Origin: Acidaminococcus sp. | GTDB lineage: Bacteria; Bacillota; Negativicutes; Acidaminococcales; Acidaminococcaceae | Direction: 5' to 3' | DNA: 64,000 bases | Assembly: GCA_022482815.1 (NCBI GenBank) | Contig: JAKVOM010000001.1 | Location: 2,562,946 to 2,626,945 of the forward strand | Part shown: positions 3,145-62,535 of the stretch, piece by piece | How positions within the stretch are numbered: the first letter of the stretch is position 1 | Layout: each line of letters starts with the position of its first letter | Position numbers and translations under genes: made by a program | The notes under the pieces: model-generated | Database searches by the model: none | What the model was told of the DNA's origin: nothing | Seen by the model: only the letters and a program-made list of their open reading frames with translations

Positions 3145-6100
3145 GATGCTACCTCCGACAATTTAACTGACAAGATCCGGGAGACGCCGGCTTCACTCAT
3201 GGTTACGCCGTGCATAACATCAGCCGCTTCCATTGTCCCCTTTCTATGGGTGATGATAATGAACTGGGTCTTTTTCCCGTATTCTCTCAGGAATTCTGCA
3301 AACCGGTCAATATTGGCTTCATCAAGCGGAGCGTCTATTTCGTCGAGAATGACAAACGGTGCCGGCTGATACGTCAGCAGGGCAAACAGCAGGGCAATGA
3401 CTGTCAGTGCCCGCTCTCCGCCCGAAAAGAGCGACAAATTCCGCATTTTCTTTCCCGGCGGCTGCGCTTCGATTTCGATACCGGCTTCCAAAAGATTCTG
3501 CTCGTTCGTAATCACGAGACGTGCCTTTCCGCCGCCAAAAAGTTTTTCGTAACATTCTCCGAAGTACTTATTGATCTGGTCGAAAGCTTCGCGGAACCGT
3601 TTGGTCATATCGGAATTGATGCCGCTGATAACGGTTTCGAGCTGCTCCTTGGCAGCGACCATATCGTCATATTGCTTAGTCAGGAATTCATAGCGGTCCT
3701 TAGCTGCCGTGTAATCTTCCTCGGCTGCCAGGTTAACCGGTCCCAATTCCTCGATTTTCTGACCAAGGAGGATTTCCTGTTTTTTCAGTTCTGGGAGACT
3801 GCCTTCGGCAAGACCATGCTCGCGCACTTCGTCCGCCGTCATATGATAGGTTTCGTTCAGCTGCTCCGCCACAGCTTCCGCTTCGGAAGCCTTCCGCACT
3901 TTATCCATTTCGATAGCGTGCTTCCGCTCATCAAGAGAATGCTGTTTTTCCGCAAGAACCGCCGCTTTGTGCTCCAGTTCCTGACGGGTCTTCTGCATTT
4001 CTTCTTTTTTATCAAGCATGGCCTGCGTCTCCTGGTCCGTGCCGGACAGTTCCTGCGTCAGGTCCTTGATTTTTCCGGCAAGGCCGCTCTGATCCGCCTT
4101 GGCTTTAGCAATCATGGCCTTGATTTCCTCAGCCTGTGCTTCCTGGGCCGCCATGTCGCTTTCCGTTTTTTCTCCCTGCTTATCGGTCTCCGCAATGCGT
4201 TCTGAAAGGGAGTCGAGCTGCGTCTTGATGGAGTTAAAGGAAATGACATCATTCTGGTACTGCCGGTTCAGGACATCCAGACGATTTCTATGCTTATTGA
4301 GAGCCTCTTCCTGCTTCAGCACATCCTGGTTGCCTTTTTCTTCCTGGGCTTCCATCGTTTTGACCTGCGGAGCAAGCTTCAGGACTTTCTGGTTCATTTC
4401 CATGAACTTCTTAGCTAGTTCAGCCCTTTCTCCGGCAATCAAATCGACTTTTTCCTGAGTCTGGGACACATCTTTTTTGAGTTGTTCAAGCTGCTGGGTG
4501 GCAGTAGCCAGCGAAACCGCGAGCTCCTGATATTTCTTTACGCAGTCATCGCGTTCCTGTGACTTCTCTTTCTGCTCTTTTTCAAGTGCGGCAAGTGCAG
4601 CCTGCTGCTTTGTGAGCTCAGCATCTGAAGTTTTGATTTCCACTTCCAAAGCGGATATTTCCTGTCGTCTGGAAAGGAAGCTCTTACTTTGCTGCTTCTG
4701 CCCGCCGGAAAGAGAACCACCGGGATAAATCACGTCACCGTCGAGAGTAACGACACGCACGCGCATATCGGCCTTGCGCGCTGCCTCAAAAGCATGGTCC
4801 AGATTGTCCGCTACGAGCACCTGTCCCAGAAGGAAAGTAATCGCCGGACGGATGGACTCATCACTCTGAACGAGTTCGGCAGCCGTTCCGATGATGCCCG
4901 GCATCTTCAGAGTTTCTTTTTCCCGTGCCGACAGATAACGCTGACGCAGGGTATCAAGAGGCAAAAAGGTAGCCCGTCCGCCCTGTTTTTCCTTCAGGTA
5001 GCGGATGGCTGATTTGGCGGCATCGGCATCAACCGTGATGATGTTCTGCAGGGCCCCGCCGAGGGCCGTTTCGATGGCCGTAATATATTCATTTTGTACC
5101 GTAATAAGTTCCGCCGTGACGCCGCAGATCCGGCTGCGCCAGCCTGCCCTGGCGGAAAGCACCGTCTTGACGCCGCGGCTGAAGCCTTCGTGTTCCTGCT
5201 CCATATGGCTTAAGACGGAATACCGCGTCTTTTTCTGTTCATGGCTGCGGCTGAGCTGCGTATAGGCTTCGCGCTGCTTCTGCCCTTTGGCAGCCAGTGC
5301 CGTCAGAGTTTCTTTTAACGCCGTTCCCTGGCGCGTCACATCTTCCTGCCGCCCCTTAAGAGAAGTCAATTCGGCTTCCTTCTGCTGCAGGGAGGCTTCG
5401 ATTCCGGCTTTTTCCTCATCGGCCTCATTGGCGCTCTGTTTCATTTTTTCCAGGCGCTGATGCAAATGCTCCTGTTCTTCTTCCGCACTGCGAAGTTCGT
5501 TGCGCAGATTGACGAGCTGCTGCATTCGTTCAAAAGCATGGCTGCGATGCTCCTGGATTTCCTTTTCTTCACTTTTTACAGTGGCATCCATGGCATCTTT
5601 TTCGGATTCGGTCTTTTTGACCGCTTCCTCCATGACTTTGAACTGACTTTCCTGCTTATCGTACGCTTCCGTCAGGAGATTCAGCGTTTCCTTTTGCTGG
5701 GCCAGCTGCCCTTCCAGACGTTCCTTCATTCTGGCCGTCTGGGCCAGCTGCTTTTCACCCTGCGTAACACGTTCCTCAAAAACAGACTGCTGCCCGCGCA
5801 GGTTCGTCAATGCTTCACGGCGTTTGCGGACACTTTCCTGGTAACTGTCGAATTTCTGGTTATACGCATTAAGAGAAGCTTCAAAAGTTTCTTTTTCCGT
5901 GACCGCCTGCTCGACTTTGGCTGCCAGGGCATTTTCCTCGTCCTGCCACTGAGCAAGGCGGGCCGCGATGGCTTCCTGCTCCTTATCGAGCCCTTCCATA
6001 CGGCGCACAAGCTGTGTCATTTTGACGGACTTGAAAGACTCATCCAGTTCACGATATTTGCGTGCTTTTTCGGCGGCCCTTTCAAGCGGCTGCAGCTGTC

Positions 6101-8898: not shown

Positions 8899-9092
8899 AA
8901 AAAAAGAGCCCTACAATGCCGTATTCATCCCACGTTTTGAACCTGCAATTGCAGGTGGGTGCCCTCCCTGCCACATCCTGATTTCCCCCAGAAAGGGCGT
9001 ATCATCGGCGACCGGAGTACACGGGCTCCCTTATAGAGAGTGTTGGCTCAAAACATGCGGGATATCTCTCGAACATCGGAGGGTTGCTCTTT
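8899..9092 (-). ncRNA. ssrS: 6S RNA
   Basis: The minus strand from about 9092 to 8899 is a roughly 190-nt non-coding transcript. The 5' part AGAGC..CCCT..CGATG pairs with the 3' part CATTG..AGGG..GCTCT, closing a long rod. Inside are blocks I know from Firmicutes 6S RNA: TTTTGAGCCAACA on the 5' side, and GGGCACCCACCT, then AGGTTCAAAACGTGGG on the 3' side. It ends in TTTTTTT. 6S RNA mimics an open promoter and binds housekeeping RNA polymerase in stationary phase. Identified by motif recall and pairing, not by a covariance search. Confidence 0.85.
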
Positions 9093-9330: not shown

Positions 9331-9398
9331 GGCGACCAGCGTAAAAGGGGCTGTCGCATTTTGCGACGGCCCCTTTTGTATCAAAAACAAGGTAAAAG

Positions 9399-9442
9399 CA
9401 AGGCGCGGCCTCATTGAATGAGACCGCGCCTTGGTGTAGAAT
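9399..9442 (+). promoter_or_regulatory. Palindrome with embedded transposase promoter
   Basis: Arms of 17 nt (9399-9415 and 9417-9433, one mismatch) form a palindrome around a single central base. TTGAAT (9414-9419) lies at its centre and TAGAAT (9437-9442) follows 17 bp later. Transcription would start at about the transposase ATG (9449). There is no Shine-Dalgarno sequence, so a leaderless mRNA is likely. Confidence 0.6.
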
Positions 9443-9448
9443 TTAAAT

Positions 9449-11077
9449 ATGCCAAAAAACAAACCTACACAAAAGGATTATACAAAAATTGGCAGTTCTT
9501 ATCAACTTTTTCTTCCTCTAAATTTTGAAGTACAAATCCCTAATGACGATCCTGTTCGCTTGGTGCGTGCCATGGTAGAAGGGATGGATGTAAAGGCATT
9601 GTATGACACGTATTCTCATGTCGAGAATAAATTAACGTCACCAATTCAGCTGCTGGAGATCGTCATTTATGCATGTATGGAAGGAATTCGTGGTTCGCGT
9701 AAGATAGAGCAATCCTGTAAAAGAGACACTCATTTCATGTTCCTCTTAGATGGGAAAAAAGCTCCGGATAATGCAACCATTGCAAGATTTTGTTCCCTCC
9801 ATCTAAAACCATGTATCAAGGAGCTCATGATTCAGATGGATAAATGGCTGCTGGCTCGCGGTTTCATCACGCTGGATAGCCTGTTCATCGATGGGACAAA
9901 AATTGAATCTGTGGCAAACAAATACAAATTTGTTTGGAAAAACAGAGTCTTAGGCAGCCAGAACAAACTCATAGAGAAACTGGAGCAACTGGTTCCCGAA
10001 ATCGAGGAACGTTTCGGAATCAAGGTCTGTTACGGAAACACTTTCCACATCCGTCATTTAAAGAAGCTCCTAAAAAAACTGCTTGTCATAAAGCGGGCTG
10101 AAGGGATCGAGTTTGTTCACGGATGTGGGAAAAGAAAGACCATTCTACAGAAGTACTATGAGATTTTAGCTAACTATCTCAAACGGCTTAAGGTGTATAC
10201 GAAGCAGCTTCACATCTGTGGGGAACGGAACAGCTTTGCCAAAACAGACCCGGATGCTACCTTTATGAGGATGAAAGAAGACGCCATGCTTAATGGCGCC
10301 TTAAAGCCGGGATACAATGTCCAATATGCCAACAATTCCGGTTTTACCTTGTTTGCAGATGTGAGTGCACATCCAACAGATATGCGGACACTCATTCCTT
10401 TTCTTGAAGGATTTGAAGCCCACTTCGGTCAGAAATTTGCAAACATTGTAGCCGATGCAGGCTATGAAAGCGAAGAGAACTTGGTCTGGCTGAAGAAGAA
10501 TCAGTATACTTCATATATCAAGCCTAACAATTATGAAAGAAGCAAGAGGAAAAAGTATAAGAACGACATCGGCAAAGCAGAAAACATGACATATTTGCCT
10601 GATCAAGACATGTATATCTGTAAAGGTAGGAGACTGCTGAAAGTCAGTAAAGTAACCCAGGTAAAGAACCGGTCAGGATATGTGTCAGAGAAAACATATT
10701 ACGAATGTAAGGACTGCAGCGGTTGTCCCTACAAGGAACAGTGCATCCATGGGAACAATTGCAGGACACCCATGGAGAAAAGAAACAAGAAATTAGTGGT
10801 CTCGAAGAATTTTGCTGCATTGAGGGCAGAATCCCTGAAGAACATTACTTCCGAATATGGTAAGGAACTGAGGATGAACCGCAGTATACAGGCAGAAGGA
10901 GCCTTTGCGGATCTCAAGGATTCATTAAACGTCAGAAGACTAGAAACCCGAGGCAAAGGAAATGCCCTGGTAACAGTGGGAATATGTGCCATGGCACGGA
11001 ATGTCCTGAAGGTCCATCACAAAGTTCAAGACGGCAAAGAGGATTTGCACTTATATCCGCTGAAAAAAGAGGCCTAA
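9449..11077 (+). CDS. IS1182-family DDE transposase, copy 1
   Basis: The 542-residue protein has the N-terminal DUF772-like domain of IS1182/IS5-type transposases and a DDE catalytic core: SLFIDGTKIES (first Asp), IVADAGYESEEN (second Asp) and EGAFADLKDSLNVRR (Glu). Between the second Asp and Glu is a cysteine cluster, CKDCSGCPYKEQC, a zinc-knuckle-like insertion common in this family. It catalyses cut-and-paste or copy movement of the element. The frame is intact. It differs from copy 2 by a single residue (Asn4 versus Lys4), so both are probably active. Confidence 0.95.
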   Translation: MPKNKPTQKDYTKIGSSYQLFLPLNFEVQIPNDDPVRLVRAMVEGMDVKALYDTYSHVENKLTSPIQLLEIVIYACMEGIRGSRKIEQSCKRDTHFMFLLDGKKAPDNATIARFCSLHLKPCIKELMIQMDKWLLARGFITLDSLFIDGTKIESVANKYKFVWKNRVLGSQNKLIEKLEQLVPEIEERFGIKVCYGNTFHIRHLKKLLKKLLVIKRAEGIEFVHGCGKRKTILQKYYEILANYLKRLKVYTKQLHICGERNSFAKTDPDATFMRMKEDAMLNGALKPGYNVQYANNSGFTLFADVSAHPTDMRTLIPFLEGFEAHFGQKFANIVADAGYESEENLVWLKKNQYTSYIKPNNYERSKRKKYKNDIGKAENMTYLPDQDMYICKGRRLLKVSKVTQVKNRSGYVSEKTYYECKDCSGCPYKEQCIHGNNCRTPMEKRNKKLVVSKNFAALRAESLKNITSEYGKELRMNRSIQAEGAFADLKDSLNVRRLETRGKGNALVTVGICAMARNVLKVHHKVQDGKEDLHLYPLKKEA

Positions 11078-11250
11078 AAGATACAAAAAGAGCGCACGAA
11101 AAAAAGCAACTTAGAGTTGCTTAATTTCGTGCGCCCTTTTTTCATCTCAAAACATATTCAACTAAAAAGTAAGGCAATTTGGGGTCTTTAGCAAGTTATT
11201 TCAGGGATTAAAAATCGGTCACTTGCGACAGCCCCTTTTAATACTCCCTC

Positions 11251-16787: not shown

Positions 16788-16833
16788 GGAAGAGAGCGTA
16801 AAAAAATGATTACATTTTTTACGCTCCCTTTTA
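16788..16833. terminator. Hairpin upstream of hisS
   Basis: GGAGCGTAAAAAATG-type arms (AGAGCGTAAAAAAATG / CATTTTTTACGCTCC) enclose a 4-nt loop and are followed by TTTT on the plus strand. It lies upstream of the hisS promoter, so it probably blocks read-through from the neighbouring repeat and permease rather than attenuating hisS. Confidence 0.65.
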
Positions 16834-16834
16834 C

Positions 16835-17040
16835 ACAGGTCGCCGGTCGCTGGCAATGGGCCGCCTGTGTATGAAAAATTGCCAGGGTATTTTTCATACA
16901 GATTTATAAAAATAAAACCTAAAATTTAGGTTATCTGCTAAATTTTAGGTTTCATTTTTATTTGAATCAAAAGACTTACCGCACTGCTGCAGGCAAAGCT
17001 TAATGCCATAAGCCAAAAGCGCCTTTTATTTTTTCACGTC
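16835..17040 (+). repeat. Intergenic repeat family B, copy 1
   Basis: Starts ACAGGTCGCCGGTCGCTGGC right after a terminator T tract. It contains an AT-rich hairpin CCTAAAATTTAG / CTAAATTTTAGG (16918-16949) preceded by TTATAAAAATAAA, then ATTTGAATCAAAA. Homologous copies lie at 41320-41500 (inverted) and 62364-62535. The stem shows paired base changes between copies. Confidence 0.7.
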
Positions 17041-17058
17041 CCCTTGCAGACGGCGGTC

Positions 17059-18132
17059 TCATTGCTTCTTTACAGTTTCTGTTTCTACTTTCTCTTCACC
17101 CGAATGCCAGAAGTAAGTATAGAGAATCTTGATAATGGCAAGAACCGGCACAGCAAAAAGCAGACCGATAGGGCCGCTGGACAATTTGCCGCCGATGATG
17201 ACAGCCAGGATGACCAGCACCGGATGCAGGGTAATAGCCTTTCCCACGAGGTTCGGCATGATTACCTGCGCATCAATCTGATAGTAGACGATGTACAAAA
17301 TCAGTACTTTGAGTGCCAGCGAAGGTTCCTGCAGAAGAGCAATCAGTACGGCCGTAATCGTACCGACCACAGATCCGACAAGAGGAATCATTTCCGTAAC
17401 GAGTCCCAATACGCCGAGAACCAGAGTATACTGCACGCCCAGAATGTAGTTGCCGATAGTCAGACAGGCCGCTGCCACCAGGGACAGCTTGAGCATATTA
17501 TCTACATAAAGGCAAAGCATATTTCCGATGTCTCCCAGAACCTGATTAGCGAGTGCCTGCTTATTATAAGGGAAGACGTCTACGAGCATGTCTTTCAGGG
17601 TTCTCCAGTCTTTCAGGAAGTAAAAAGTCAGGAAAGGTACGAGAGCCATACTGACCATACTTCTGGCAAACTGAACCGACTGAATGAGCATTTTCTGGGC
17701 GAGGCTCATGGCATACCCGCCAACCGTTGAAAGCGCCTGTTCCAGTAGATTTTTAATGTTCGGAGGCATCTGGCTCTGCGCCTCTTCACCAAAAAACATA
17801 TGGATGGTATTTGACGCGGCCGCAGCAAGACCCGGCAGAGCTTTTGTTAAGGTATTGATCTGATTCATGAGAGGAATCATTAGTACATGGAGAGCAAAAG
17901 CGATGAAAGCGCCAAAAATGAGGAATGCCAGGAGCACGGCAATCACACTTGGCATAGCCTTTCCCTTGATACGAATTTTTTCCAGTCGCCGCACAATCGG
18001 GTACAGCAGGAAGGAAAAAGCGATAGAAACAAAGACAGGCAGCAAAAAGTCCGTCACAACACAAAATATGGCAAATGCACCAAGTGCAACCGCGGATTTA
18101 AAAATCAGACTGCGTGATTTTCCTTCTTCCAT
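17059..18132 (-). CDS. AI-2E family transporter (UPF0118)
   Basis: The 357-residue protein has about eight hydrophobic segments in the AI-2E pattern: two near the N terminus, one ending a long amphipathic middle (about 100-160), then the block PFLTFYFLKDW and a cluster of C-terminal membrane helices with LVGSVVGTITAVLIALL. Family members have been linked to autoinducer-2 export or sodium/proton exchange, so the substrate is open. GAAGG precedes the ATG. It follows the metallo-hydrolase gene by 13 bp and is probably cotranscribed with it. Confidence 0.88.
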   Translation of the reverse strand: MEEGKSRSLIFKSAVALGAFAIFCVVTDFLLPVFVSIAFSFLLYPIVRRLEKIRIKGKAMPSVIAVLLAFLIFGAFIAFALHVLMIPLMNQINTLTKALPGLAAAASNTIHMFFGEEAQSQMPPNIKNLLEQALSTVGGYAMSLAQKMLIQSVQFARSMVSMALVPFLTFYFLKDWRTLKDMLVDVFPYNKQALANQVLGDIGNMLCLYVDNMLKLSLVAAACLTIGNYILGVQYTLVLGVLGLVTEMIPLVGSVVGTITAVLIALLQEPSLALKVLILYIVYYQIDAQVIMPNLVGKAITLHPVLVILAVIIGGKLSSGPIGLLFAVPVLAIIKILYTYFWHSGEEKVETETVKKQ

Positions 18133-41288: not shown

Positions 41289-41319
41289 AAAACAGTGGGC
41301 AATTTGCAGTTAGTAAAGA

Positions 41320-41500
41320 GTCTGTAAAAAAATAAAAATAGCAGTGTGGTAAAGATTTTGATTCAAATAAAATATGATATAAAAGCTGAATTTAGCAGTT
41401 AACCTAAATTTCAGCTTTTATTTTTATAAGTTCGTAGAAAAATGCCCTGGCAATTTTTCTTCCACAGGCGGACGGCTGACAGCGGAAGGCAGGCGGCGTA
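41320..41500 (-). repeat. Intergenic repeat family B, copy 2 (inverted)
   Basis: Read on the minus strand it gives GAAAAATTGCCAGGGCATTTTTC, ACTTATAAAAATAAAA, the hairpin AGCTGAAATTTAG / CTAAATTCAGCT (41381-41419) and ATTTGAATCAAAA, parallel to copy 1 at 16835. Confidence 0.7.
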
Positions 41501-41510
41501 TTTTTACCAG

Positions 41511-41560
41511 AAAAAAAGCTGTGAAACAATGATCACTCATTATTTCACAGCCCTATTTTT
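41511..41560 (-). terminator. Terminator of the YjiH-like gene
   Basis: GCTGTGAAACAATGA / TCATTATTTCACAGC with TTTTTTT following on the minus strand, 20 bp after the stop. Nearly the same stem as 13581-13629. Confidence 0.88.
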
Positions 41561-43070: not shown

Positions 43071-43212
43071 AAGCCTTCGGCAGAAAAGAACATCTTCCAG
43101 CGTAAGCGATTCCCCCTATTTTACTTTCCTCCCCCACAAAGCAGGCTACTCCTTCCAAACGGACGGAGGTAACAGAGGAATTCCAAGCCTTACGGTTTAG
43201 CTTAACTAATAA
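43071..43212 (+). repeat. Intergenic repeat family A, copy
   Basis: CCTTCGGCAGA, CTATTTTACTTTCCTCCCCCA, GGACGGAGG and AGAGGAATTCCAAGCC, then ACGGTTTAGCTTAACTA. It is followed by TTTATTCGCTGCAAACCGC (43231-43249), the tail module also found in family D. Confidence 0.75.
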
Positions 43213-43333
43213 ACCAAGAGGGCGCTGCGTCTATTTATTCGCTGCAAACCGCTCCGCGTTTTGCTTCTTTGGGGGAACGGCAGACTGCAGTCGGCAGTAG
43301 GCGTTTTTTCTTCTTTCTCCTATTGACAATCCA

Positions 43334-43342
43334 TGCTATAAT
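43334..43342 (+). promoter_or_regulatory. Extended -10 promoter of the DUF1858 gene
   Basis: TGCTATAAT is a perfect extended -10 element 37 bp upstream of the ATG. TTGACA lies only 8 bp upstream of it and cannot be its -35. Confidence 0.55.
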
Positions 43343-43379
43343 AAAAGCACAATCTTAAATGTAATTAAGGAGGATTCAG

Positions 43380-43610
43380 ATGGAAAAAGTTACTGAGGAT
43401 TCCGGTATCATTGAAACCGTTCAAAAACATCCTGAAATTCTTGAAATTTTCATGTCCTATGGTCTCGGCTGCGTTGGCTGCATGGCTGCCAACTTTGAAA
43501 CCATCGGCCAGGGCGCCAGAGCTCATGGCCTCGATGTAGATGCCCTGATTGCTGACATCAATGAATGCATCGCCACGAACGAAGGCGGCAAAGAAGAAGC
43601 AAAGGACTAA
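43380..43610 (+). CDS. DUF1858 domain protein
   Basis: The 76-residue protein is essentially one DUF1858 domain: I-x-E-TVQKHPEILEIFMSYGLGCVGCMAANFETIGQGA in outline, with a CxxC pair (GCVGC). This domain occurs at the N terminus of ScdA/RIC-type iron-sulfur repair proteins and alone in anaerobes. A redox or metal-cluster role is plausible but unproven. AAGGAGG lies upstream; a strong terminator follows, so it is a single-gene unit. Confidence 0.88.
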   Translation: MEKVTEDSGIIETVQKHPEILEIFMSYGLGCVGCMAANFETIGQGARAHGLDVDALIADINECIATNEGGKEEAKD

Positions 43611-43616
43611 GACATC

Positions 43617-43661
43617 AAAAACGAGCTGTGAAGAATTCCATTTCTTCACAGCTCGTTTTTT
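43617..43661. terminator. Terminator of the DUF1858 gene
   Basis: AAAAACGAGCTGTGAAGAA / TTCTTCACAGCTCGTTTTT with a short loop, 7 bp after the stop codon. Confidence 0.92.
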
Positions 43662-43699
43662 CGCAGGTCGCTGGCCGTGTGGGGCACCAGCAGAGTAGT

Positions 43700-43822
43700 C
43701 CATCACCTACCGCAAGCAGTCTCCCTTAACTTACTTTCCTCCCCCACTTCGTGGTCCCTCCTCGTTCCAGCGGACGGAGGTTGTAGAGGAATTCCAAGCC
43801 CTACGGTTTGGCTTAACTAGCA
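43700..43822 (+). repeat. Intergenic repeat family A, copy
   Basis: ACTTACTTTCCTCCCCCACTT, CGTGGTCC, CGGACGGAGG, TAGAGGAATTCCAAGCC and ACGGTTTGGCTTAACTAG, in the same order as at 43071 and 55098. A family B-like start, CGCAGGTCGCTGGC, precedes it. Confidence 0.75.
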
Positions 43823-43858
43823 AACGTGCCAGGAGATTCTCCTGACACGCTTTTGCTA
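43820..43858 (+). terminator. Hairpin between DUF1858 and RidA genes
   Basis: AGCAAA..CGTGCCAGGAGA pairs with TCTCCTGACACG..TTTTGCT, with TTTTGC after it. It may end the RidA transcript on the minus strand or the repeat transcript on the plus strand. Confidence 0.6.
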
Positions 43859-51507: not shown

Positions 51508-53055
51508 CTATTCTACATCCAACTCAGGCGTGATTTCGTAGTAGTCCGAGGGATGAGCCGTGAGGCCCTTCACATTTTTCTTCATGACAAAATTCATTTT
51601 GAGGAATGACACGTACAGTACAGCGTTATCGTCCAGGATCTGCTGCTGAACAGCAAGGGCAAGCCGATTTCTTTCCGTACGGTCAAAGGTATTGTGCAGT
51701 TTATCAATCAGGGCATCGACATTGGGATTGCTGTAATAACCATTGTTATAGGGCTCTTCGGAATAAATTTTGCTCATCAGATAATATTCCGGGTCACCGG
51801 TCGGCGCCGTCACCATCGCCTGTGCGTAAATATCGTATTCACCGCGCTTCAGGAAATCCTTATAGTTATCCGTGGCGTTGACGTCCAGTTTAATACCGAT
51901 TTTCTTCAGCTGAGACTGGGCATATTCCGCAAGAAGCGGCAGTTCCTGCCGGGATACATAAGTAAGCCAGCGCAAGGTCAGCGGCTTTCCGTCTTTCATG
52001 ACATAGCCATCTGCATTCTTCTCAGTGTAGCCGGCCTCAGCGAGAAGCTTTTTAGCGCCTTCAAGGTCATATTGGGGAGCCTTGAGTCCCCGGCCAAAAT
52101 CCGTATGGGTTGGAAAAGCCCCTACTGCAGGTTCTCCGTTGCCGTTTAAGAGCACATCTACAAACTGCTTCTTGTCAATAGCCATGGCAATGGCTTGTCT
52201 CACACGGTTATCCTGCAGAACCGGCGTCTTAAAGTTCATAGCCGCCTGGTACACGCGGCTTGTTGCGCAGGAAGAGATTTTGTACCGATTTTCATCACTA
52301 AAGTCTTTCAAGCTGGCATAAGGCAGTCCCTGCACAGCGTCGAGTTCCCCACTCTGCATAGCCATGGAAAGAGTTCCGCCGTCAGTAATACTACGGACAA
52401 TGATGCGATCCATTTTGGGTTTTACATCACCCCAGTAGGTTTCGTTTTTCTTCAGCTCTACGCCCTCGTCATCCGCGCGGATTGCCGCATAGGGACCCGT
52501 CCCCACGGCAATACGATTCCTGATGCCCGCTTCCATATCAATGATGGCACTATACGGGTCAGCAAGGTAGTTGATAAGAGCCGGTACTTTTTCCCGGGCA
52601 TGAATCGTGACTTTCTGACCATCGGCAGCAATGCGGTCGATTTTAAGGTCGTGAGGTGCCCTGTCATGGCGCTTCAGAAGATCTTCAAAGCACGCTTTTA
52701 CAGCTTCGCCGGTCACTTTTTTCCCGTTTGAGAAGGTGATATTGTCCCGAAGCTTAATTTCCAGCGTATAGTCGTCAATCTGCTTATAAGACTCCGCGAG
52801 CCAGGGCTGCACGTTCATATTCTGGTCAAATTTAAAGAGTGTCTCCCCGACACCGTATCTGACGGCACTCCAGCCACTATACGCTTCATGGGGATCCAGG
52901 CTGGCATTTTGCATAGCCGGGCCATAGGCCATTGTCCCGTAATGAAAAACTTTCCCCTTTTTCTGAGAAGAAGGACTACTGCCGCAGCCACTAAGTGCCA
53001 CGGCTGCACCCAAAAGAAGGGTCAGACAAATTTTCTTCCATTTTTGTTTCATCAT
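51508..53055 (-). CDS. Family 5 extracellular solute-binding lipoprotein (nickel/peptide/opine type)
   Basis: The 515-residue protein has a lipoprotein signal peptide, with lipobox LSGC at about 21-24, so it is anchored outside the cytoplasmic membrane. The rest has the SBP_bac_5 pattern: LAESYKQIDDYTLEIKLRDNITFSNG, GTGPYAAI, and an RQAIAMAIDKKQFV segment. Family members bind peptides, nickel or nickel/opine complexes (NikA, CntA). Specificity is not readable; the neighbouring CsoR-type sensor favours a metal or metallophore. Confidence 0.88.
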   Translation of the reverse strand: MMKQKWKKICLTLLLGAAVALSGCGSSPSSQKKGKVFHYGTMAYGPAMQNASLDPHEAYSGWSAVRYGVGETLFKFDQNMNVQPWLAESYKQIDDYTLEIKLRDNITFSNGKKVTGEAVKACFEDLLKRHDRAPHDLKIDRIAADGQKVTIHAREKVPALINYLADPYSAIIDMEAGIRNRIAVGTGPYAAIRADDEGVELKKNETYWGDVKPKMDRIIVRSITDGGTLSMAMQSGELDAVQGLPYASLKDFSDENRYKISSCATSRVYQAAMNFKTPVLQDNRVRQAIAMAIDKKQFVDVLLNGNGEPAVGAFPTHTDFGRGLKAPQYDLEGAKKLLAEAGYTEKNADGYVMKDGKPLTLRWLTYVSRQELPLLAEYAQSQLKKIGIKLDVNATDNYKDFLKRGEYDIYAQAMVTAPTGDPEYYLMSKIYSEEPYNNGYYSNPNVDALIDKLHNTFDRTERNRLALAVQQQILDDNAVLYVSFLKMNFVMKKNVKGLTAHPSDYYEITPELDVE

Positions 53056-55097: not shown

Positions 55098-55330
55098 CCT
55101 TCGGCAGAGAGGGACATCCTCCACTGCAAGCGGTTTCCGCTATTTTACTTTCCTCCCCCACTTCGTGGTCCACCCTCGTCCTAAAGGACGGAAAAGAAGC
55201 TATCCTCCACCGCTATCGTCAGCGCTTCCTACCGTCAGTGCTGACTGCGGTTCCCCTCCTTTCGAAGCCGCATGGCGGCTTGAAAGGAGGTCCTAGAGGA
55301 ATTCCAAACCTGACGGTTTGGCTTAATTAG
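55098..55330 (+). repeat. Intergenic repeat family A, long copy
   Basis: CCTTCGGCAGAG, CTATTTTACTTTCCTCCCCCA, CTTCGTGGTCC, then an insertion of about 90 bp with its own inverted repeats, and the tail AGAGGAATTCCAAACC, GACGGTTTGGCTTAA. Space 54958-55097 shows nothing else recognised. Confidence 0.7.
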
Positions 55331-55356
55331 AGCGTCTTTTAAGAAAGGAAATCATC

Positions 55357-60470: not shown

Positions 60471-62362
60471 AAGGGACTGTCGCATTTTGCGACGGCCCCT
60501 TTTGTATCAAAAACAAGGTAAAAGCAAGGCGCGGCCTCATTGAATGAGACCGCGCCTTGGTGTAGAATTTAAATATGCCAAAAAAGAAACCTACACAAAA
60601 GGATTATACAAAAATTGGCAGTTCTTATCAACTTTTTCTTCCTCTAAATTTTGAAGTACAAATCCCTAATGACGATCCTGTTCGCTTGGTGCGTGCCATG
60701 GTAGAAGGGATGGATGTAAAGGCATTGTATGACACGTATTCTCATGTCGAGAATAAATTAACGTCACCAATTCAGCTGCTGGAAATCGTCATTTATGCAT
60801 GTATGGAAGGAATTCGTGGTTCGCGTAAGATAGAGCAATCCTGTAAAAGAGACACTCATTTCATGTTCCTCTTAGATGGGAAAAAAGCTCCGGATAATGC
60901 AACCATTGCAAGATTTTGTTCCCTCCATCTAAAACCATGTATCAAGGAGCTCATGATTCAGATGGATAAATGGCTGCTGGCTCGCGGGTTCATCACGCTG
61001 GATAGCCTGTTCATCGATGGGACAAAAATTGAATCTGTGGCAAACAAATACAAATTTGTTTGGAAAAACAGAGTCTTAGGCAGCCAGAACAAACTCATAG
61101 AGAAACTGGAGCAACTGGTTCCCGAAATCGAGGAACGTTTCGGAATCAAGGTCTGTTACGGAAACACTTTCCACATCCGTCATTTAAAGAAGCTCCTAAA
61201 AAAACTGCTTGTCATAAAGCGGGCTGAGGGAATCGAGTTTGTTCACGGATGTGGGAAAAGAAAGACCATCCTACAGAAGTACTATGAGATTTTAGCTAAC
61301 TATCTCAAACGGCTTAAGGTGTATACGAAGCAGCTTCATATCTGTGGGGAACGGAACAGCTTTGCCAAAACAGACCCGGATGCTACCTTTATGAGGATGA
61401 AAGAAGACGCCATGCTTAATGGCGCCTTAAAGCCGGGATACAATGTCCAATATGCAAACAATTCCGGTTTTACCTTGTTTGCAGATGTAAGTGCACATCC
61501 AACAGACATGCGGACACTCATTCCTTTTCTTGAAGGATTTGAAGCCCACTTCGGTCAGAAATTTGCAAACATTGTAGCCGATGCAGGCTATGAAAGCGAA
61601 GAGAACTTGGTCTGGCTGAAGAAGAATCAGTATACTTCATATATCAAGCCTAACAATTATGAAAGAAGCAAGAGGAAAAAGTATAAGAACGACATCGGCA
61701 AAGCAGAAAACATGACATATTTGCCTGATCAAGACATGTATATCTGTAAAGGCAGGAGACTGCTGAAAGTCAGCAAAGTAACCCAGGTAAAGAACCGGTC
61801 GGGATATGTGTCAGAGAAAACATATTACGAATGTAAGGACTGCAGCGGTTGTCCCTACAAGGAACAGTGCATCCATGGGAACAATTGCAGGACACCCATG
61901 GAGAAAAGAAACAAGAAATTAGTGGTCTCGAAGAATTTTGCTGCATTGAGGGCAGAATCCCTGAAGAACATTACTTCCGAATATGGTAAGGAACTGAGGA
62001 TGAACCGCAGTATACAGGCAGAAGGAGCCTTTGCGGATCTCAAGGATTCATTAAATGTCAGAAGACTAGAAACCCGAGGCAAAGGAAATGCCCTGGTAAC
62101 AGTGGGAATATGTGCCATGGCACGGAATGTCTTGAAGGTTCATCACAAAGTTCAAGACGGCAAAGAGGATTTGCACTTGTATCCGCTGAAAAAAGAGGCC
62201 TAAAAGATACAAAAAGAGCGCTCGAAAAAAGCAACTTAGGGTTGCTTAATTTCGTGCGCCCTTTTTTCATCTCAAAACATATTCAACTAAAAAATAAGGC
62301 AAATTGGGGCCTTTAGCAAGTTATTTCAGGGATTAAAAATCGGTCACTTGCGACAGCCCCTT
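60471..62362 (+). mobile_element. IS1182-type insertion sequence, copy 2
   Basis: Same element as at 9343-11239: left end AAGGGACTGTCGCA (one mismatch to the right end complement AAGGGGCTGTCGCA), left-end fold, palindrome at 60525-60559, transposase, and right-end hairpin. It is one base shorter than copy 1 in an A run. The right end abuts a family B repeat. No clear target duplication seen. Confidence 0.93.
60575..62203 (+). CDS. IS1182-family DDE transposase, copy 2
   Basis: The 542-residue transposase is identical to copy 1 except Lys4 for Asn4; DDE residues and the CKDCSGC cluster are intact. By eye I count roughly 15-20 base differences across the gene, nearly all silent. The ATG has the same leaderless context: TAGAAT ends 6 bp upstream and there is no Shine-Dalgarno sequence. 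Confidence 0.95.
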   Translation: MPKKKPTQKDYTKIGSSYQLFLPLNFEVQIPNDDPVRLVRAMVEGMDVKALYDTYSHVENKLTSPIQLLEIVIYACMEGIRGSRKIEQSCKRDTHFMFLLDGKKAPDNATIARFCSLHLKPCIKELMIQMDKWLLARGFITLDSLFIDGTKIESVANKYKFVWKNRVLGSQNKLIEKLEQLVPEIEERFGIKVCYGNTFHIRHLKKLLKKLLVIKRAEGIEFVHGCGKRKTILQKYYEILANYLKRLKVYTKQLHICGERNSFAKTDPDATFMRMKEDAMLNGALKPGYNVQYANNSGFTLFADVSAHPTDMRTLIPFLEGFEAHFGQKFANIVADAGYESEENLVWLKKNQYTSYIKPNNYERSKRKKYKNDIGKAENMTYLPDQDMYICKGRRLLKVSKVTQVKNRSGYVSEKTYYECKDCSGCPYKEQCIHGNNCRTPMEKRNKKLVVSKNFAALRAESLKNITSEYGKELRMNRSIQAEGAFADLKDSLNVRRLETRGKGNALVTVGICAMARNVLKVHHKVQDGKEDLHLYPLKKEA

Positions 62363-62363
62363 T

Positions 62364-62535
62364 ACGCAGGTCGCCGGTCGCTGGCCGCGGGTCGCCCGTG
62401 GAAGCAAAATGACCAAAGCATTTTGCTTTAAACTTATAAAAATAAACCCTGAAATTTAAGTTAACTTCTAAATTTCAGGGTTTATATCATATTTTACTTG
62501 AGCCAAAAGCATCTTTTTATTTTTCACAGTCCCTT
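62364..62535 (+). repeat. Intergenic repeat family B, copy 3
   Basis: CGCAGGTCGCCGGTCGCTGGC, an AAGCAAAATG-ACCAAAG-CATTTTGCTT hairpin, CTTATAAAAATAAA, the hairpin AAACCCTGAAATTTA / TAAATTTCAGGGTTT (62444-62483), then the 3' module. It adjoins the IS right end and the 3' end of the Fic gene. Confidence 0.7.

Follow-up and report, generated by a model that had tools for sequence, protein, structure and literature searches.

Species-specific palindromic repeats at gene 3' ends in an Acidaminococcus genome, with paired stem changes that may come from template switching between DNA arms

The BOX, SPRITE, REP, MITE, and heptamer repeats of other bacteria were each partly like the repeat family analyzed here, and none was shown to be identical to it. 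According to the sections of PMC3049150 that describe them, the BOX elements of S. pneumoniae are thought to be parasitic and number about 100 copies per genome; like the Acidaminococcus element, they are modular, variable in length, folded, and enriched between convergent genes. BOX elements are also reported to end in inverted repeats and to duplicate their target sites, neither of which was established for the Acidaminococcus element, and the modules of the two differ. SPRITE, which is seldom seen beyond S. pneumoniae and S. mitis, appears in the same sections as an AT-rich repeat with an 18-bp duplex and a T-rich tract, enriched between convergent genes and near gene 3' ends. The Acidaminococcus element likewise combined a long duplex, a T-rich tract, and convergent placement, but, as far as the two can be compared by description only, its palindrome formed one part of a larger modular element that also contained heptamer arrays, most of the scored copies of the palindrome were T-tailed on both strands, and a separate terminator was often adjacent.

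REP and BIME sequences, as covered in part of PMC3733652, are high-copy palindromes that follow coding regions and lie between convergent genes, as did the Acidaminococcus copies. Most REPs are 20 to 40 bp long and carry a GTAG or CGTC tag; in the Acidaminococcus family, GTAG was found at the foot of hairpin 1 in only 30 of 105 rows of the covariance search. In the portion of PMC4596501 on the BrickBuilt MITE of P. gingivalis, that repeat is species specific and intergenic and contains tandem repeats, like the Acidaminococcus element, but its units are 23 bp long and its inverted ends are small, whereas degenerate 7-bp arrays stood at both flanks of the Acidaminococcus element. Some features were also shared with the MITEs described in part of PMC10969869. 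Tandem 7-bp intergenic units with a lineage-restricted distribution are described for Xanthomonas and Nostoc (PMC4692102) and, as TAACTGA repeats, for Beggiatoaceae (PMC4679880); in the relevant parts of these two accounts, the units have a fixed sequence and no hairpin core, unlike those of Acidaminococcus. A term search of the text of PMC4692102 gave 0 occurrences of "terminator," and no description of terminator-adjoining heptamer arrays was found in the literature searched. We regard the Acidaminococcus family as a variant of the BOX/SPRITE/REP type of repeat.

The window, which is the whole 64-kb stretch of DNA that was analyzed, is part of a single-contig genome of 3,057,042 bp. Relatives of its histidyl-tRNA synthetase gene, identified via Pfam, placed the genome in Acidaminococcus, the best being isolate RUG075 (92%). 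The original prediction described three homologous segments in the window, each with an AT-rich hairpin, and all three were present, with copy 2 on the minus strand. The stems quoted for them were also verified: CCTAAAA/TTTTAGG in copy 1, AGCTGAA/TTCAGCT in copy 2 (minus strand), and CCCTGAAA/TTTCAGGG in copy 3. Copy 1 had been located correctly, and its extent had to be redrawn to about 16833 to about 17043, which takes in a second heptamer array and a T-rich end.

When copy 1 was used as a blastn query, at least 40 strong matches were obtained in the genome (the best 40 of 186 candidates). A covariance model, R1, was built from 32 copies and identified 130 rows at E<=0.01 and 108 rows at E<=1e-3; removal of three antisense duplicates from the latter left 105 working rows. 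Because two pairs of rows each represented one element split by an insertion sequence (IS), these rows corresponded to about 103 elements, and the genome-wide covariance search thus took the family far beyond three copies. Counts are given per row (105) unless elements (about 103) are named. The elements were about 170 to 290 bp long, shared a conserved core (about 134 bp), and were dispersed on both strands of the chromosome.

No family member was detected with R1 in eight congeneric species, and none was detected in 58 other genomes of Acidaminococcaceae (E<=1e-4, stricter filters). An exact-pattern scan for the core gave no match in a set of genome contigs from which the genome's own and near records were possibly absent, plasmid and phage sequences gave no family match via blastn, and two further patterns gave no match in viral contigs. 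A single match in viral contigs was judged by eye to be chance in AT-rich DNA. The site of copy 1 was empty, by eye, in six of six named congener records, two of which came from uncultured isolates. At the site of copy 262917, congener G006 carried the ortholog of the gene and a terminator-like hairpin of its own without the element (by eye), and at another site, the spacers of G003 and G007 were about 290 bp shorter, with no element seen there. The genome (3.06 Mb) was about 0.4 to 0.9 Mb larger than those of the eight congeners (2.2 to 2.7 Mb, rounded), and the repeat and IS load may contribute to its larger size.

From left to right, the element consisted of a degenerate heptamer array, a small hairpin (hairpin 1), and an AT-rich palindrome of 16 bp, after which came a second heptamer array and then a T-rich end; the features of the window copies are listed in Table 1. 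Units in the left array were of the CCGCNNN or TCGCYGG type, and the array was followed by CGTGGAAG, which formed hairpin 1, and then by TTATAAAAATAAA. The consensus of the palindrome was AACCTGAAATTTAG-spacer-CTAAATTTCAGGTT, followed by TATTTGAATCAAAAG...GCAGACGAGG, and the right array, with units of the CYAAANG type, led into CGCTTTTTATTTTTT and often CACAGCCCC. The lag-7 self-match was 0.53 in left arrays (67 rows parsed) and 0.51 in right arrays (89 rows parsed), compared with 0.31 and 0.27, respectively, after one shuffle, and 71 of the 89 right arrays belonged to one length class modulo 7. The core had a GC content of 31% versus 47.5% in the sampled genome, and on either strand, the palindromes of the three window copies folded far more stably than shuffled sequences (z -4.7 to -8.4). 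A second arrangement, with a different repeat module (CCTTCCACGCAGTCGG type) to the left of the palindrome, accounted for 12 of the 105 rows, and mosaicism of family copies with other repeat modules was heavy. Further intergenic repeat families (CTTTCCTCCCCCAC.. and CCTCCTTCCACGCAGTCGGAAGGAGG..) were observed at 43074-43825 and 55098-55335 of the window and at 5500-5900 of stretch L143; the CCTCCTTCCACGCAGTCGGAAGGAGG.. repeat was joined to the palindrome element in several copies.

Table 1. Repeat elements and adjoining features (window positions; the last two lines refer to the chromosome)
Feature	Position	Strand	Basis
Terminator-like hairpin and T tract (GAGCGTAAAAAAATG..CATTTTTTACGCTC, TTTT), abuts copy 1	16794..16832	+	sequence read, stem scored
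Copy 1, left degenerate heptamer array	16833..16865	+	
Copy 1, small AT-rich hairpin 1 (TGTATGAAAAAT/ATTTTTCATACA)	16868..16900	+	fold, -11.8 kcal/mol, z -3.5
Copy 1, palindrome (CCTAAAATTTAG/CTAAATTTTAGG)	16915..16952	+	fold
Copy 1, right heptamer array, T-rich tract, CACGTCCCC end	16996..17043	+	
Copy 2, whole element (palindrome ~41381-41419; right heptamer array absent)	41318..41500	-	
Terminator-like hairpin near copy 2 (AGGGCTGTGAAATAATG..CATTGTTTCACAGCT)	41511..41557	-	
IS with 542-aa DDE_Tnp_1_6 transposase; right end GCGACAGCCCC abuts copy 3 at the usual terminator position	60473..62360	+	
Copy 3, whole element (palindrome 62444-62483; right heptamer array absent)	62364..62535	+	
IS-split element (rows 2892514/2893975)	2892514-2894108		
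IS-split element (rows 1497194/1498603)	1497194-1498728		

The placement of the family was assessed with our own gene calls, which were based on open reading frames and codon usage. None of the 105 rows lay wholly within a called gene, and one overlapped a gene edge. Relative to the element, the neighboring genes were convergent (+-) in 49 rows, codirectional in 51 (-- in 31 and ++ in 20), and divergent (-+) in 2, and the left gene was uncalled in 3; this is a REP-type location. In element-free gaps of at least 60 nt from six long stretches, the corresponding counts were 10 (+-), 15 (--), 13 (++), and 16 (-+), and the proportions of convergent and divergent pairs differed between element rows and element-free gaps (Fisher p=4e-8). 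In the case of copy 1, the end of the element was 15 nt from the stop codon of a minus-strand AI-2E-family transporter gene (17059-18132).

A strong upstream hairpin was found in 70 of the 93 rows that had no other left module, and in 57 of these 70 the heptamer array started within 8 nt of the stem, a count that used a loose start motif and no random-position control in this genome. In the remaining 13 rows the array was farther from the stem, and four of these were IS ends at which the scorer had chosen an inner hairpin. The upstream hairpins were of the GCTGTGAA type in 43 of the 70 rows and of other types, some wholly unrelated, in 27. As an exact pattern, the GCTGTGAA hairpin type occurred 62 times in the genome and was present in six of the eight congeners (16, 3, 0, 10, 10, 31, 0, and 3 occurrences). 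Because this hairpin type was present in six of eight congeners, in which the element was not found, and because elements also followed other hairpins, the idea that the terminator hairpin is part of the element was set back, and it stays among the rivals.

Two other features were observed in the course of this work. A 6S RNA gene was identified on the minus strand at 8904-9087 of the window (77 bits; gathering threshold, 46.4), and the left flank at chromosomal position 52268, beside a truncated copy, carried a sequence that may be related to the 3' end (domain V/VI) of a group II intron, which it resembled. Group IIC introns likewise use terminator stem-loops.

To evaluate the claim that the stem changes in a paired way, 97 of the 105 rows and 16 pairs were analyzed; six rearranged rows and two rows with inverted spacers were left out. 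Of the 1519 cells, 1447 were Watson-Crick. Both partners had changed in 34 Watson-Crick cells, compared with 5.5 ± 1.9 in 1000 column shuffles, none of which reached 34, and 8 pairs showed a double change versus 2.6 in shuffles; these statistics ignore kinship, in that the copies are related to one another, so that the cells do not count as separate events, and the figures carry no correction for a tree. Slid controls gave 2 to 9 double-changed cells. Because the double changes were above both the shuffles and the slid controls, we considered the paired change to be real. Thus, the family was neither limited to the three window copies nor devoid of a compensatory excess when further copies were included.

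The original prediction went on to state that compensatory change implies selection on folding, and this did not follow, as the mismatches were symmetric and two spacers were inverted. One-sided mismatches in the palindrome were A·C in 33 cases versus G·T in 24 (p=0.29), which indicated no G·U bias. In contrast, the adjoining terminator stems had 32 G·T versus 16 A·C mismatches (68 distinct stems, equal penalties; p=0.03), and the difference between palindromes and terminators was modest (p=0.02). In the terminators of Bacillus cereus, G·U is reported to be the most frequent intermediate (PMC5381666). The combination that would mark a one-strand RNA, namely covariation together with G·U-biased one-sided changes, was not found in the palindrome. 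Two neighboring pairs had undergone transversion changes, from A-T to C-G in 4 copies and from C-G to G-C at the next pair in 4, and the two pairs together showed a single half-way mismatch. In addition, the spacer of the palindrome was inverted between unchanged flanks in 2 of the 105 rows (copies 414079 and 1345336). An Rfam scan of the window gave four matches, none at the copies, and a permissive Rfam scan of copy 1 gave sub-threshold matches only, the best of which was 26.9 bits versus a cut-off of 55.

Template switching between the arms of an inverted repeat yields arm homogenization and spacer inversion, as described in part of PMC8604942, and it is able to create compensatory changes, as described in part of PMC8794818. 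Both the symmetry of the mismatches and the spacer inversions are more readily reconciled with template switching between the arms of the DNA than with selection on a one-strand RNA. When 41 disjoint pairs of nearest copies were compared, one-sided differences (44) outnumbered Watson-Crick double differences (12), as ordinary mutation predicts, and this result counts against template switching. On balance, we lean toward the view that the family consists of species-specific dispersed repeats that resemble non-autonomous mobile elements, and that the paired changes arose mainly via template switching between the palindrome arms; the template-switching part of this view draws on the mismatch symmetry and the two inversions, both of which were read from sequence. 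The family would have spread after the species split from its congeners, with copies at gene 3' ends and mostly beside intrinsic terminators. A replicating strand would switch its template between the palindrome arms and copy a change in one arm into the other, and the same switch would sometimes flip the spacer. Copies would persist where they do little harm, and they may contribute a weak bidirectional terminator.

A rival explanation, which we consider possible but doubtful, is that the palindrome is a functional RNA, a bidirectional intrinsic terminator of the SPRITE-like kind, that selection maintains its folding in both directions, and that the element persists by ending transcription between convergent genes. 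The excess of paired changes and the convergent placement of nearly half of the rows are consistent with this idea, as are the stem energies (mean, -19.5 kcal/mol) and the T-rich tails (at least 5 T of 8) that were present on both strands in 79 of 88 scored palindromes, although this tail count was made in AT-rich DNA and had no control. The stems themselves were AT-rich (in copy 1, 3 of the 15 pairs were G-C), many copies already had a strong hairpin within 8 nt, wobble preference was absent on either strand, and spacer inversion requires a DNA event, all of which argue against it. Since a bidirectional RNA terminator would also produce symmetric mismatches, an RNA function was regarded as unproven. 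Thus, of the two possibilities that had been suggested at the outset, an RNA element or a mobile MITE-like sequence, the first was left unproven and the second applied loosely, in that the family was short, high in copy number (about 103 species-specific copies), and intergenic.

The preferred view, that of non-autonomous-mobile-like repeats, raised the matter of how the copies might move. The family could not be tied to any known mobility system by a transposase, by proven repeats at its ends, or by duplicated target sites. No consistent direct repeat was noticed in the flanks by eye, the congener spacers were too diverged to align, and no parental autonomous element with the same ends was noticed in the stretches retrieved (at least 414 kb of 3.06 Mb). 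One candidate partner was the DDE_Tnp_1_6 IS, a 1.9-kb element present at 26 places and as one fragment in the genome. Its ends (GGGGCTGTCGC/GCGACAGCCCC) resembled terminator arms and occupied the position that the terminator holds in other copies, and it abutted a heptamer array at 12 of the 26 places, copy 3 included (by eye). A second window copy of this IS was observed at 9347-11235.

It is improbable, in our estimation, that the element is a MITE of this IS, with a mobile unit bounded by the terminator arm GGGGCTGTG and the right end CACAGCCCC. These two sequences do resemble the IS ends, right ends like TTTCACAGYCCC (3 or fewer mismatches) were found in 57 of the 105 rows versus 3 when shuffled, and the heptamer arrays adjoin the IS at the places noted above. 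However, the likeness was confined to the outer 8 bases, the GGGGCTGTG/CACAGCCCC inverted pair exists only when the neighboring terminator is counted in, the strong left hairpins included the 27 that were not of the GCTGTGAA type, and that hairpin type was present in congeners where the element was not found. The IS may merely target the same terminators. The IS may share a landing site with the element, and it is less likely that the IS moves the element.

We considered it highly improbable that the element is REP-like or IS200/IS605-derived and is acted on as a folded single strand by a Y1 transposase. The genome had six Y1_Tnp matches, the placement of the element was REP-like, and CTAC (GTAG on the other strand) stood at the foot of hairpin 1 in the 30 rows mentioned above, but CTTT or CTTC took its place in 38 of the 105 rows, and REP kinship was therefore not established. 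Moreover, a GTAG/CGTC-type tag was found within 12 nt of the right palindrome foot in 1 of 95 cases and of the left foot in 19 of 88, two of the six Y1-gene stretches held a known copy, which was at least 0.9 kb from the gene, and the ends of the one tnpA/tnpB element of the six that was compared by eye showed no likeness. Equally improbable is a family that formed without transposition, via local events (slippage, recombination, and gene conversion) in spacers that tolerate them; the variation of arrays by whole 7-bp units and the mosaicism are in keeping with it, but a conserved core that recurs across the chromosome on both strands, at sites that are empty in orthologous spacers, is not. 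As a separate observation, the two IS-split elements were interrupted by an IS with ends GGTTCTTC.. / GGTTCTTTGTC.., which made 8-base target duplications and which may belong to the ISL3 family.

The heptamer arrays were also examined across the genus, with three RGYCRCN heptamers as the array pattern and the reversed pattern as the control; long arrays were counted several times because of overlaps. The pattern occurred 84 times in the genome versus 12 for the control. In congeners G001 to G008, the counts were 28, 1, 0, 7, 3, 22, 0, and 32, and the reversed controls were 2, 0, 0, 1, 2, 5, 0, and 0, so that the pattern was clearly above the control in four congeners. In 50 genomes from 17 other genera of the family, the array pattern was found once in total, and the control was likewise found once. 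We then scored 37 of 38 array places from G001, G004, G005, and G008 (the G008 number being a lower bound; places in G002 and G006 were left out), and arrays started 0 to 2 nt past the foot of the best hairpin at 26 of the 37, compared with 39 of 740 random positions in the same stretches (equal mismatch penalties). Arrays at the feet of terminator-like hairpins were seen in congener stretches L258-L295 and at loci of the genome itself, such as L223. The congener arrays carried interiors other than the palindrome, and in some elements of G001 and G004, a different interior was bounded by arrays in inverted orientation and by a convergent pair of terminator-like hairpins (by eye).

These results suggest, tentatively, the possibility that heptamer-array elements anchored at terminators occur throughout Acidaminococcus, with lineage-specific interiors, and that they spread through an undescribed route that lands on the terminator hairpin. 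The arrays would then begin at the foot of the stem and would in some cases occupy the space that separates two convergent terminators.

Even when the paired positions of a hairpin family covary strongly, this need not signal a functional RNA. In the case of the Acidaminococcus palindromes, the count of wobble versus A·C mismatches, set against that of the neighboring terminators, and the spacer inversions point to template switching between DNA arms. For the genus, the arrangement of these elements suggests that terminators may serve as landing or holding sites for several types of repeats.
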